Part shown: piece by piece, positions 17,311 to 21,569 of the stretch
Numbering within the stretch: position 1 is the stretch's first letter
Layout: each line of letters starts with the position of its first letter
Origin: Exiguobacterium sp. 9-2
GTDB taxonomy: Bacteria > Bacillota > Bacilli > Exiguobacteriales > Exiguobacteriaceae
NCBI RefSeq assembly: GCF_036287235.1
Contig: NZ_CP142850.1
Span: 1,195,127 to 1,259,126, forward strand
DNA: 64,000 nt
Direction of reading: 5' to 3'
Program-made: the position numbers and the translations under genes
The notes under the pieces: model-generated
Told to the model about the DNA's origin: nothing
Database searches by the model: none
What the model saw: only the letters and a program-made list of their open reading frames with translations

Positions 17311-17495
17311 GTTCCATTCCTCCATTTCACGATTTGATGATTCTGTTTCAGTATGGAAAAGACGAGGGGATTCTGTAAAGAGAGACGACTTATGGAACTG
17401 TAACCGTCATCAAAACATCTTTTTAACGCTTTTATGCATAAAATCGTCAAATTATCTTGAAATCACGTGTAAGTGTGGTAGGATAATGACTATTA

Positions 17496-17574: not shown

Positions 17575-18405
17575 ATGAGAAAGAAACCATGGCTATTAGC
17601 TGGACTTGTCCTGACAGGCGTTGCCGCTTGGATGATCTGGAATCAACAGACGAATGTCGAAGCACATGACATCTTCGAAGACCAAAAACTGGTTGTCGGA
17701 ACGACGGGGGATTATAAACCCTTTACATACTGGAACGAGGAACGGAATCGTTATCAAGGCTTTGATATTGAAGTCATCCAAGCGTTTGCTAAAGCAGCGG
17801 ATCTTGACGTGACGTTCGTCAAGACAACATGGCCGACGTTATCGGAAGATACGAAGTCAGGTAAGTTTGATATCGCTGTCGGTGGGATTACAAAGAAAGT
17901 CGAACGCGAGGTCGTCGGAGACTTTACGTCGTCGTATTTCTCCTTTCAAAAAGCACCGCTCGTAAAGAAGGAAGATGTCAAACGCTTGAATTCGCTTGAT
18001 GCAATCAATGATCCATCCGTCAAAATCGGTGTCAATCCGGGTGGGACGAATGAGGCGTTCGTGAAGAAGCATTTTCCGAAGGCGAATGTGACCGTCTTTG
18101 AGAATAATTTAGACATTCCAAAAGCCGTCCAAAGCGGTCAAGTCGACGTCATGGTAACAGACGACATCGAAGCGTTGCATTACGCGACAGAACTCAATCT
18201 TGCGGTGCCGAAACTGACAGAGGCGTGGGAACCAGCCGAGATGGCGTATTTGATGAAATCGGATCAAAAACAGCTTGGAGATGTCTTCCGGGTCTGGATT
18301 GAAAGTGCAGAGGGGCAAGAACAAGTTCAAAAATTGAAGAAAAAATGGAACATCGTCTCGACGCGTGAGACGGTCGGAGCGAAAGGAGCGGGAGCACATG
18401 AGTAA
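17575..18405 (+). CDS. Exported SBP_bac_3 protein, cyclohexadienyl dehydratase (PheC)-like, copy 1
   Basis: A 276-residue protein with an N-terminal signal or anchor helix (WLLAGLVLTGVAAWMIW), no lipobox cysteine, then a bacterial solute-binding fold of family 3. The motif order VGTTGDYKPF, FDIE, TTWPTL, GKFDIAVGGI, VNPGGTNE, MVTDDIEA and AEMAYL closely follows Pseudomonas PheC, which dehydrates prephenate and arogenate in the periplasm. The glutamate in DIEA (E199) aligns with the catalytic acid known for that enzyme. It could equally be an amino-acid-binding relative that predates catalysis. The ATG at 17575 follows AAAGGAG. It overlaps copy 2 by eight bases. No ABC permease or ATPase is adjacent. 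Confidence 0.8.
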   Translation: MRKKPWLLAGLVLTGVAAWMIWNQQTNVEAHDIFEDQKLVVGTTGDYKPFTYWNEERNRYQGFDIEVIQAFAKAADLDVTFVKTTWPTLSEDTKSGKFDIAVGGITKKVEREVVGDFTSSYFSFQKAPLVKKEDVKRLNSLDAINDPSVKIGVNPGGTNEAFVKKHFPKANVTVFENNLDIPKAVQSGQVDVMVTDDIEALHYATELNLAVPKLTEAWEPAEMAYLMKSDQKQLGDVFRVWIESAEGQEQVQKLKKKWNIVSTRETVGAKGAGAHE

Positions 18406-19195
18406 ATGGGGATGGATCGTCGTCGGAGGTGGCGTCCTGTTTGCGAGCTTACTGACGCTATGGCAATCGGAGCAACCACGACGTGTACAAGCAAAGAACG
18501 TCTTTGCGACGAAAAAAATCGTCGTCGGAACGACCGGCGATTACAAACCATTCACCTACTTGAACCGGAAGACGAACGAGTACGAAGGATTCGATATCGA
18601 AGTGATCCGTTCTTTCGCGAAGACGACCGGTATCGATGTCGAATTCGTCCCGACGACATGGCCCACGCTATCTGCTGATCTTGCTAGCGGGAAATTCGAT
18701 ATGGTCGTCGGGGGCGTGACGAAGAACATCGAGCGCGAGATCATTGGCGACTTCACGTCAAGTTACCTGTCGTTCCAAAAGACACCGCTCGTCCGTAAAG
18801 AAGATGCCGGACGCCTTGCTTCGATCGAACAAATCAATCGACCGGACGTGACGATTGGTCTAAATCCAGGGGGGACGAATGAACAGTTCGTCCGTAAGAC
18901 GTTCACGAAGGCGAATATCGTCATGTATGAACAAAACCTCGACATCCCGCATGCTGTTGCCTCAGGTGAAGTCGATGTCATGATCACTGATACGGTCGAG
19001 GCGATTCATTATGAAGCACTCGATCAACGACTCGCGGCACCAAGAATTCAAGAAAAGTGGATTCCGGCGGAGAAAAGCTACCTCGTCCGGGAGTCAGAAG
19101 GGGACGTCGTCGATGTCTTTAACCTCTGGATGCAGTCGTACGAAGGACAGGAAGAGATGGAGCAATTAAAAGAGAAATGGCAAGTGGCGTCATAA
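18398..19195 (+). CDS. Exported SBP_bac_3 protein, cyclohexadienyl dehydratase (PheC)-like, copy 2
   Basis: A 265-residue paralogue of the preceding gene, similar along its whole length: VGTTGDYKPFTYLN, TTWPTLSADLASGKFDMVVGGV, LNPGGTNEQF, MITDTVEA with E201 at the catalytic position, and AEKSYL. It has its own N-terminal membrane segment, WGWIVVGGGVLFASLLTLW, without a lipobox. ATG at 18398 is preferred to the in-frame upstream codon because GAAAGGAG is spaced nine bases from it. It arises from a tandem duplication, and the two copies have diverged well. Both should work outside the membrane. Substrate preference is not readable. Confidence 0.8.
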   Translation: MSKWGWIVVGGGVLFASLLTLWQSEQPRRVQAKNVFATKKIVVGTTGDYKPFTYLNRKTNEYEGFDIEVIRSFAKTTGIDVEFVPTTWPTLSADLASGKFDMVVGGVTKNIEREIIGDFTSSYLSFQKTPLVRKEDAGRLASIEQINRPDVTIGLNPGGTNEQFVRKTFTKANIVMYEQNLDIPHAVASGEVDVMITDTVEAIHYEALDQRLAAPRIQEKWIPAEKSYLVRESEGDVVDVFNLWMQSYEGQEEMEQLKEKWQVAS

Positions 19196-19691: not shown

Positions 19692-19967
19692 ATGATTCAT
19701 GTCGTGAACTTGACGAAGACGTACGATGGAAAGGATGTCGTCAAAGGGATTTCGTTTGACGTGCAAGCAGGGGAAATCTTCGCCTTTCTTGGACCGAACG
19801 GTGTCGGGAAATCGACGACTGTTCAGATGCTGACGACGCTGATTAAACTGAGAATACCGATTAGGACGAGCAGGAAACGATTGAATCCGTTCATATTTCA
19901 TCTCTCTTTTCTGTCGTTAAATTGTTTAGACGTTCGGGAAATCACGAATACCATGAATAATATGTGA
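19692..19967 (+). pseudogene. Truncated ABC transporter ATPase
   Basis: From the ATG at 19692, about 53 residues are a normal ABC ATPase start: [39 protein letters not shown] with an intact Walker A, TTLIKL. The similarity then stops abruptly near 19850. The remaining 38 codons ([14 protein letters not shown] onward) carry none of the Q-loop, LSGGQ signature or Walker B. The gene is therefore a remnant of a drug-exporter-type ATPase (DrrA-like start) whose 3' part has been deleted or replaced. A working protein is unlikely. Confidence 0.75.
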
Positions 19968-20036: not shown

Positions 20037-21404
20037 TTATTTTTCGATTTTCGGTACTTTTACGATGTAGTAGATCGTACTTAAAATCAAAAAGGCGATT
20101 CCGATTAAGATTGAGACGCGTGTCTCGTCATTGAACAGCATGCCGACGAGTACTGTGATCAGCGCGACGATCGATAGATAGTTCGTCACCGGTGCACCTG
20201 GCATCTTGAACGGATGCGAGGCTGTCCGTTCACTTTCGAGTTTTCGGTAACGGATATGACTGATTAATATCGCGAACCACGGCACCATCCCTGGTAGTAC
20301 CGAAGCGCTGTAGACATAAACGAAGATGTTCGTATCCTTTCCGAGAACGTGCGGGAGAATGATATCGAGAATGACACCAAAGAAAATCCCGATTGAAATG
20401 GCTAGAACTGTATAGAGCGGAATCCCACGTTTATTGACCTTTAAGAAGAAAGACGGCATTTGCCCTTTTTCCGCTAATGCATAGATCATCCGACTGGCGC
20501 TGAAGATTCCTGAGTTACAACCGGATAAAGCGGCCGTGATGACGACGAAGTTAATGATGCCGGCAGCAATCGTCACACCGACCTTGGCGAATGTCGCAAC
20601 GAACGGACTTCCAAGATCGGATAATTCGTTCCACGGATACACCGTGACGATGATGAAAATCGCTCCAACGTAGAAAATCAGAATCCGCCAGACGACACCA
20701 TTGATCGCCTTCGTGATGTTTTTCTCTGGATCTTTTGTTTCCCCAGCCGTGACTCCGATCAACTCGACACCGATGTAAGAGGCGAAAACAATCGAGAGGG
20801 CAAAGAAGAACCCGGTGAAACCGTTTGTGAAGAATCCACCGTTTGTCCAAAGATTCGAAAGACCGACTGGATTTCCTCCATTCCCTAGTCCAAAGAAAAT
20901 AATGCCGAATCCAGCGACGATCATCAGAAGAATCGTCAGTATCTTGATCGAAGCAAACCAAAACTCGAGTTCACCGAACATCTTGACGGAAGCAAGGTTT
21001 GCGAGCGTCAAGAGAATGATGACGACGATCCCTGGAATCCATGTTGGTAGTTCAGGCCACCAGAAGCGTAAGTACGTTCCAACGGCGATGACTTCACTCA
21101 TTCCGACGACGACCCAGTTGAAGATGTTGCTACTTGCTGTTAAAAAACCAGCAGCTGGATGGATATAATCGTTTGCGAACTTTGCGTATGATCCACTGTG
21201 CGGATGGGTGTAGACCATCTCGCCGAGTGCCCGCATGATGAAAAAGATAAAAACTCCGGCTAGCATGTACGCAAGTAAGACTGATGGTCCTGTCCAAGCG
21301 ATCGTACTTGATGCCCCGAGGAAGAGACCAACACCAATCGTTCCTCCGAGCGCAATCATTTGTACCTGTCGTGCTGTTAAATCTCGTTTCAAATTCGAAC
21401 TCAT
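20037..21404 (-). CDS. Amino acid permease, APC superfamily
   Basis: A 455-residue transporter with twelve hydrophobic helices. The N-terminus, LKRDLTARQVQMIALGGTIGVGLFLGASSTI, is the hallmark of the AAT branch of the APC family (YbxG, YtnA, AnsP, ProY), proton symporters for single amino acids. GELEFWFASIKI and CNSGIFSASRMIYALAEKGQMP are further family blocks. The ATG at 21404 is preferred over an in-frame start 43 codons upstream because GGGGGAA precedes it and the family starts there. Substrate is not predictable. Monocistronic with its own terminator. Confidence 0.92.
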   Translation of the reverse strand: MSSNLKRDLTARQVQMIALGGTIGVGLFLGASSTIAWTGPSVLLAYMLAGVFIFFIMRALGEMVYTHPHSGSYAKFANDYIHPAAGFLTASSNIFNWVVVGMSEVIAVGTYLRFWWPELPTWIPGIVVIILLTLANLASVKMFGELEFWFASIKILTILLMIVAGFGIIFFGLGNGGNPVGLSNLWTNGGFFTNGFTGFFFALSIVFASYIGVELIGVTAGETKDPEKNITKAINGVVWRILIFYVGAIFIIVTVYPWNELSDLGSPFVATFAKVGVTIAAGIINFVVITAALSGCNSGIFSASRMIYALAEKGQMPSFFLKVNKRGIPLYTVLAISIGIFFGVILDIILPHVLGKDTNIFVYVYSASVLPGMVPWFAILISHIRYRKLESERTASHPFKMPGAPVTNYLSIVALITVLVGMLFNDETRVSILIGIAFLILSTIYYIVKVPKIEK

Positions 21405-21569
21405 CGTTTCCCCCAAAAAAATCTGTGACGTCATAATGTTCAGACAACTTGTCGTAAGAACTATAAAGCTGAGTATACTATCCTCGGATAGGGCTCGGCT
21501 AGTCTTTTTGAAAATTTGAAATAGAGTTTTCAATAATCAGATATTCATGAAACAAATATGTAACAGCTT

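Follow-up and report, generated by a model that had tools for sequence, protein, structure and literature searches.

Two overlapping genes in a stretch of 64,000 nucleotides from Exiguobacterium sp. 9-2 (contig NZ_CP142850.1, positions 1,195,127 to 1,259,126; the whole stretch is referred to as the window) encode homologs of PheC, the cyclohexadienyl dehydratase (CDT) of Pseudomonas aeruginosa (PaCDT). This gene pair, which lies in a genome consisting of a single contig of 3.06 Mb, is the subject of our analysis. The features at the locus, in window coordinates, are as follows.

17457..17484, + strand: promoter-like site TTGAAA-16-TAGGAT with TG before the second hexamer (consensus match only)
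17575..18405, + strand: gene 1 (P0001), CDT family, predicted exported; ATG at 17575, stop at 18403-18405, 276 amino acids
18398..19195, + strand: gene 2 (P0002), CDT family, predicted exported; ATG at 18398, stop at 19193-19195, 265 amino acids
19198..19234, + strand: intrinsic terminator, a 15-pair hairpin running into six U (RNA fold, -21.2 kcal/mol)

A preliminary description of the locus had reported two overlapping genes, and both the coordinates and the overlap of 8 nucleotides were verified. An AAAGGAG ribosome site precedes each start codon, and the two proteins are 55% identical. The overlapping reading frames suggest co-expression, and the pair probably forms a small operon. The terminator was spotted by eye and by RNA folding (z of -5.74, with 0 of 200 shuffles equally stable) and was not listed by a simple promoter/terminator scan, which found 5 promoter-like sites in the region against 2.0 expected, a number near chance.

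Both proteins begin with a hydrophobic stretch (mean hydropathy of 2.2 and 2.28), which is followed by A/V-x-A in all 18 Exiguobacterium pair proteins read. A scan of 27 Exiguobacterium rows, from pairs and single copies, showed no lipobox; the start used for the nine single copies falls inside the gene, and five longer N termini that were read also lack Cys. The membrane segment without a lipobox proposed in the preliminary description is upheld in both respects, but the segment might be cut off as a signal peptide instead of serving as an anchor. As far as sequence can tell, the pair displays the export feature of the CDT family, a hydrophobic N terminus followed by A/V-x-A.

The best sequence match of both proteins in the PDB was AncCDT-3 (E = 7.5e-61 for gene 1 and 1.9e-68 for gene 2), followed by AncCDT-5, AncCDT-1, and natural CDTs, and E values of this order exclude a chance resemblance. 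All of the PheC motifs quoted in the preliminary description are present in the pair (TGDYKPF, TWPTL, GKFD, NPGGTNE, and TDDIEA/TDTVEA). Excerpts of PMC10520331 list nine residues of the CDT active site (Tyr22, Trp60, Lys100, Asn128, Thr132, Asn133, Asn152, Thr169, and Glu173), and each window protein has 9 of the 9 in our alignment. The glutamates singled out earlier, E199 of gene 1 and E201 of gene 2, are the equivalents of the general acid Glu173 of PaCDT, for which these excerpts report a role as proton donor, and are invariant in 52 aligned sequences. The preliminary description had proposed a comparison with PaCDT and with binding proteins. In the same alignment, the binding protein AncCDT-1 differs at four of the nine positions (100, 128, 133, and 173), and its states Asp19, Gln100, Gln128, Thr131, Ser133, and Val173 are all swapped for CDT states in the pair.

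PaCDT (PDB 3KBR, 5HPQ, and 6BQE) shares with the pair the fold, the nine active-site residues, and export, which for the pair is predicted. However, it is 32-33% identical to the pair and is a trimer with Gln177, Cys106, and Ser80. The window proteins carry Tyr177, Lys106, and Thr80 instead, and the PaCDT-type combination of Gln177 and Cys106 is absent. Thr80 and Tyr177 are the states of AncCDT-3 (PDB 5JOS; PMC7683729), which is 45-48% identical to the pair and likewise has the nine residues and no Cys106. AncCDT-3 is a monomeric, weakly active laboratory reconstruction, whereas the pair is natural, conserved, predicted to be exported, and duplicated. The alternative raised in the preliminary description, that of relatives close to the transition from binding protein to enzyme, proved apt in view of these two states.

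In a tree of 90 rows (L122, L125, L127, L135, L140, and L150 were dropped), a 100/100 branch splits 86 CDT-type rows, including the pair, from four receptors, which are all from the window genome and sit on very long branches. A placement among amino-acid-binding proteins, named earlier as evidence against a dehydratase, was not seen. Pfam and NCBIfam gave generic matches to amino-acid receptors (SBP_bac_3 domain), those from NCBIfam all under the curated cut-offs. Membership of the pair in the CDT/PheC family in the broad sense, rather than among the amino-acid receptors, is supported by the full active site, the tree, the lack of transporter genes, and the T-box(Phe)-hisC-tyrA-CDT operons of relatives described below. 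By their residues, the two proteins appear to be natural CDTs of the AncCDT-3 type, within a large branch in which Tyr177 is retained and the cysteine of PheC is missing.

The best 80 of 592 relatives, recruited by a contig scan with two motifs and including five Exiguobacterium loci, span Bacillota, Pseudomonadota, Thermodesulfobacteriota, Latescibacterota, and others. The recruiting motifs, T[TP]GDYKPF and [VL]NPGGTNE, favor Tyr22, Asn128, Thr132, and Asn133 and do not favor Trp60, Lys100, Asn152, Thr169, or Glu173. All nine residues, including the catalytic Glu, are present in 78 of 78 complete loci (the incomplete L135 and L140 were left out). Position 177 is Tyr in 69 of these, Val in 4, Gln in 4, and Met in 1, and the four Gln177 loci are exactly the four with Cys106, a group on a separate long branch in the tree. 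In this 80-locus sample, the PaCDT type appears as a small, long-branched group inside a mostly Tyr177-type family. The family is common in Bacillota, and its occurrence in a Gram-positive, earlier presented as special, is not exceptional. A Pfam survey of nearest neighbors (73 of the 77 listed neighbors of 110-600 amino acids, drawn from 49 of the 80 loci, with L075, L076, and 14 redundant or short ones skipped) returned mixed families and one informative case, tyrA beside L080.

This case provides a link to PHENYLALANINE in relatives: in Rossellomorea aquimaris (L080), hisC, tyrA, and the homolog are arranged in this order on one strand, and the homolog lacks a hydrophobic N terminus. A homolog is present in all eight genomes of the genus that were covered. 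In four of them (G398, G441, G446, and G443) the CDT gene lies directly behind tyrA and its product lacks the hydrophobic N terminus (hydropathy of 0.33-0.62, versus 2.85-3.19 for three exported copies), and in the remaining four the N terminus is of the export type and no tyrA lies within 1.5 kb. The T-box(UUC)-(aroC)-hisC-tyrA-CDT operons are as follows.

L080:412-3792
L165:4474-9228
L166:1548-6338
L167:3605-6921

The tyrA label comes from Pfam in L080, from NCBIfam in L165 and L167, and from 69% identity to L080 in L166; hisC was tested in L080 and aroC in L166, and elsewhere these labels come from similarity or reading. A T-box leader (Rfam RF00230, 132.5 to 159.4 bits) is present in each of the four operons. 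In L080 and L167 it precedes hisC; in L165 and L166 it precedes aroC, which is itself ahead of hisC. Specifiers were read by what we take to be the rule, namely GAA, one base, and then the triplet. The triplet was UUC (Phe) in all four leaders. As a control, the T-boxes before two Exiguobacterium phenylalanine hydroxylase genes gave UAC (Tyr) by the same reading, and UAC is the specifier published for the hydroxylase leader of E. chiriqhucha (excerpts of PMC5399880). Upstream of the operon and in divergent orientation, L166 (tested) and L167 (by reading) also carry a DAHP synthase-chorismate mutase gene. The canonical prephenate dehydratase domain (PF00800) was not found in R. aquimaris (G398), the only one of the four operonic genomes searched and one whose completeness is not given.

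The four operonic copies all have the nine residues, with Tyr at position 177 in three and His in one. They are 35-43% identical and provide evidence on relatives, not on the window proteins themselves. In the tree used for the approximately unbiased test described below, the operonic and exported copies of this genus are not sisters. We regard the Phe T-box operons as the best evidence that the Tyr177 type may be catalytic in the cell, and they look like a natural case in which an exported family of enzymes was re-internalized into phenylalanine synthesis. No publication tying a T-box to cyclohexadienyl dehydratase, or Rossellomorea to prephenate dehydratase, was found in a search outside of which most subscription journals lie. 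The exported copies L161 to L164 of the same genus carry an extra stretch (WNGKxIxTLxVNGK...) between the signal peptide and the CDT domain, and similar stretches were noted by reading in L159, G122, and L109.

We estimate a probability of roughly 0.7 that the pair is a small operon of secreted or membrane-tethered PheC-family dehydratases built on the fold of substrate-binding proteins, for which we infer both catalysis and the substrate. An enzymatic pair appears more likely than a pair of transport receptors because the active site is complete and because signal-less relatives end a phenylalanine-controlled operon. The preliminary description had put forward an extracytoplasmic arogenate/prephenate dehydratase pair; the active site, the tree, the lack of transporter genes, and the operons of relatives bear out an exported CDT/PheC family rather than receptors, and dehydratase activity is the part that stays conjectural. 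In the proposed mechanism, the two lobes of each protein would close on prephenate (or arogenate) outside the cytoplasm, the Glu173 equivalent (E199 or E201) would protonate the leaving hydroxyl, and loss of CO2 would aromatize the ring, giving phenylpyruvate (or phenylalanine). Phenylalanine hydroxylase could then supply tyrosine. The prephenate outside might come from leakage, from lysed neighbors, or from chorismate outside, and both its exit and the entry of the product would have to be assumed.

PF00800 and PF02153 (prephenate dehydrogenase) were each found in 0 of 38 genomes of the family, and 14 of 14 control genomes were positive for each. A CDT-like gene is present in 18 of 19 genomes of the window's genus and phenylalanine hydroxylase in 37 of the 38. 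Chorismate mutase is present as one CM_2 domain fused to a cytoplasmic DAHP synthase. The pair provides the only candidates found for the prephenate-to-phenylpyruvate step in Exiguobacterium. The same pathway picture was drawn for E. sibiricum in 2008; excerpts of that paper (PMC2615787) remark on the CDT-like protein, name a phenylalanine dehydrogenase, propose a possible extracellular phenylalanine route, and call for experiments. The protein of E. sibiricum 255-15 is very probably an ortholog (L079, NC_010556.1, 74% identical to gene 2), but is encoded by a single copy, and the excerpts contain no residues, relatives, or operon evidence. For E. chiriqhucha, excerpts of PMC5399880 report that the Phe and Tyr routes are missing in the annotation, yet that the organism grows on serine or asparagine as the sole carbon source, which hints at an unannotated Phe route. 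Among Bacilli outside the genus, G157 (L071:7786-8673; 99% complete) represents a second lineage that combines an exported CDT of the Tyr177 type with the absence of a PF00800 match, and its CDT gene follows a run of siderophore-synthesis-like genes (labeled by reading).

Several observations weigh against an enzymatic pair that serves phenylalanine synthesis. AncCDT-3 has a kcat/KM of only about 6-155 M-1 s-1, and Tyr177 is reported to block the productive rotamer of Glu173 (PMC7683729). The operonic copies of R. aquimaris and its relatives carry Ser80 like PaCDT and do not fully vouch for the Thr80 proteins of Exiguobacterium, and an Rfam search around the pair gave nothing above chance, with no T-box by the window genes. 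No exported chorismate mutase was found when CM_2 was looked at, other mutase families not having been searched. Excerpts of PMC2615787 state that E. sibiricum was grown on tryptic hydrolysates and judge it a likely Phe auxotroph. The sister genus (19 genomes) is without PheA, TyrA, and CDT alike, and G006 is without canonical prephenate dehydratase and CDT; the family can therefore live without either enzyme. PF00800 is present in 35 of 36 Bacilli carriers outside the genus, with G157 as the exception, and in 39 of 44 carrier genomes (absent from G157, G398, two Exiguobacterium, and one small metagenome-assembled genome). Since most carriers keep the canonical enzyme, a CDT gene and the loss of PF00800 do not go together closely.

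The fold is a further point on this side. The AlphaFold2 models reached a pLDDT of 89.1 for gene 1 and 89.6 for gene 2. With the gene 2 model, the top Foldseek match was AncCDT-3 (E = 1.4e-29), at a low TM-score; its structure, 5JOS, is described as wide open (PMC7683729). With the gene 1 model, VIA-align placed CDTs on top (Z of 29.7 to 27.6); AncCDT-1 scored 28.6, within the CDT range, and other receptors reached 26.4 at most. Judged by these models, fold alone does not tell enzyme from receptor, and the pair is not separated from the binding protein AncCDT-1.

With a threshold of E <= 1e-35, CDT-type genes were seen in 54 of 398 Bacilli genomes, 18 belonging to the window's genus and 36 outside it; 64 genomes lack PF00800, and the CDT and PF00800 searches covered the same genomes as far as these were listed. 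A plain replacement of PheA by CDT throughout the Bacilli was rejected: 45 of these 64 carry no CDT-type hit at that threshold, and nearly all other carriers keep PF00800, as noted above.

The pair itself is present in 9 of the 19 genomes of the genus; 9 have a single copy and G006 has none. The 38 family genomes yielded 27 CDT-type copies at <=1.3e-94, a single decaying copy at 5e-34, and otherwise nothing stronger than 7e-20. Near a contig end, at G004:C5:813283-813981, lies a second CDT-like copy (43% identity to gene 2) that contains four in-frame TGA codons and is probably decaying. The single copy is the ortholog of gene 2 (69-74% identity) and, in the four wider loci compared (G014, G004, G009, and G012), occupies the same place with the same neighbors. 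In the tree, gene 1 lies outside gene 2 and the single copies, and grouping genes 1 and 2 as a single clade gave p = 0.019 in an approximately unbiased test, although this hypothesis was chosen with the tree already known and long branches are involved. These data favor an old duplication with later loss of gene 1.

The two genes may also have split roles, with gene 2 as a conserved dehydratase and gene 1 as a decaying or redundant duplicate, a regulator, or a partner subunit. We regard this as a real possibility somewhat short of even odds, and one that overlaps with a dehydratase operon. Both genes are under purifying selection, with a mean dN/dS of 0.023 for gene 2 (36 pairs, 9 genomes) versus 0.092 for gene 1 (28 pairs, 8 genomes; the interrupted copy G016a was left out of alignments and dN/dS). 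Consistent with split roles, gene 1 is absent from the nine single-copy genomes and broken by an in-frame stop in one of the nine pair genomes (G016), and residue 198, a Lys in both gene 2 and PaCDT, is replaced by Met in gene 1. However, gene 1 is still constrained, with the nine residues kept in 8 of 8 intact copies, and the overlap of the frames suggests that the genes are expressed together. The earlier proposal that the duplicates bind two different ligands finds no support here, as the nine residues are identical in both, nine genomes make do with one copy, and gene 1 is the less constrained.

A less favored alternative, which we consider unlikely, is that the pair consists of binding proteins only (for prephenate, phenylpyruvate, or another carboxylate) that serve an unlinked transporter or sensor through an ancestral pocket, with no useful catalysis. 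The closeness to the low-activity AncCDT-3, with Tyr177 and Thr80 kept, the SBP_bac_3 domain, and the canonical enzyme in most CDT carriers are consistent with binding alone, and sensing roles are discussed for exported CDT fusions in excerpts of PMC10520331. Those CDT-chorismate mutase fusions resemble the pair in having the CDT domain outside the cytoplasm and the nine residues, but looking at the CM_2 family revealed no chorismate mutase that is fused to the pair or exported. Against binding alone, the catalytic Glu is invariant in all 78 complete loci, which is hard to explain for a mere receptor, and relatives stand in an operon with tyrA under a Phe T-box.

The transporter context also argues against binding alone. 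An amino-acid ABC permease lies in the flanks of only 1 of the 80 CDT-type loci (L084, on the other strand; flanks were up to 3 kb, and well under 3 kb in 8 loci), but beside 4 of 4 nearest receptors of the window genome. Those receptors have a lipobox in 4 of 4 cases by a relaxed pattern and 2 of 4 by a strict one, unlike the pair. The permease queries were taken from the four control loci themselves, whose own matches are no test; each control finds the other three at <=9.3e-34, and the four control permeases and that of L084 score above the HEQRo_perm_3TM cut-off. The pair shares the fold and Pfam domain of the family 3 amino-acid-binding proteins (SBP_bac_3), but their lipobox, adjacent cognate permease, and ligand-site residues are all missing.

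The preliminary description had reported no adjacent ABC permease or ATPase. This holds for amino-acid ABC permeases, with none among the 23 open reading frames of window 8-30 kb, but not for ATPases, as a truncated ABC ATPase lies about 500 bp downstream (19692-19964). It is a remnant of a DrrA-type ATPase, with an ABC_tran match over the first part only. In six related Exiguobacterium loci, none of which has an adjacent cognate amino-acid permease, a full-length ATPase and then an ABC-2-type permease follow the CDT-like gene, the permease being one frame in five and split in G016. In L065, the one locus scored, the ATPase is above the DrrA cut-off and the permease is DrrB-like and under the cut-off. 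This arrangement points to an exporter, not an amino-acid importer. One further neighbor is convergent with the pair.

20037-21533, - strand: amino-acid permease of the AroP/ProY/ThrP group

We do not read this gene as a Phe importer, since its best match is a threonine/serine transporter model and it falls under the cut-offs of all 25 models shown. It is kept at the same place in G014, G009, G003, and G016 and is absent there in G004 and G012.

That the proteins are ordinary ABC amino-acid receptors with a chance likeness to PheC motifs, as the generic Pfam and NCBIfam matches might suggest, is very improbable and was rejected, given that CDTs rank first in sequence and fold searches, that six AncCDT-1 states are replaced by CDT states, that the tree joins the pair to CDTs apart from the genome's four receptors, and that no amino-acid transporter lies at the locus.

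Returning to a secreted dehydratase pair, a much broader scenario can be outlined, which as a whole we consider rather doubtful. Exiguobacterium would make part of its phenylalanine outside the membrane: both cytoplasmic consumers of prephenate would have been lost, the exported pair would be the sole prephenate dehydratase, its product would be re-imported, and the hydroxylase would convert phenylalanine to tyrosine. The Tyr177 type would be a widespread living enzyme family rather than a lost intermediate, and a signal-less copy would have replaced PheA in the Phe T-box operon of one genus of Bacillaceae.

What is new here is the wider Tyr177 family and the Phe T-box operons; the Exiguobacterium idea itself dates to 2008. 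CDT is a model for an enzyme born from a binding protein and has been studied largely via reconstructed ancestors. Natural proteins with the states of AncCDT-3 (the nine residues, Tyr177, and Thr80) let the work on ancestors be checked on real sequences, and genetic grounds for expecting activity come from the T-box(Phe)-hisC-tyrA-CDT operons. The 2008 remark on phenylalanine synthesis in Exiguobacterium becomes testable.
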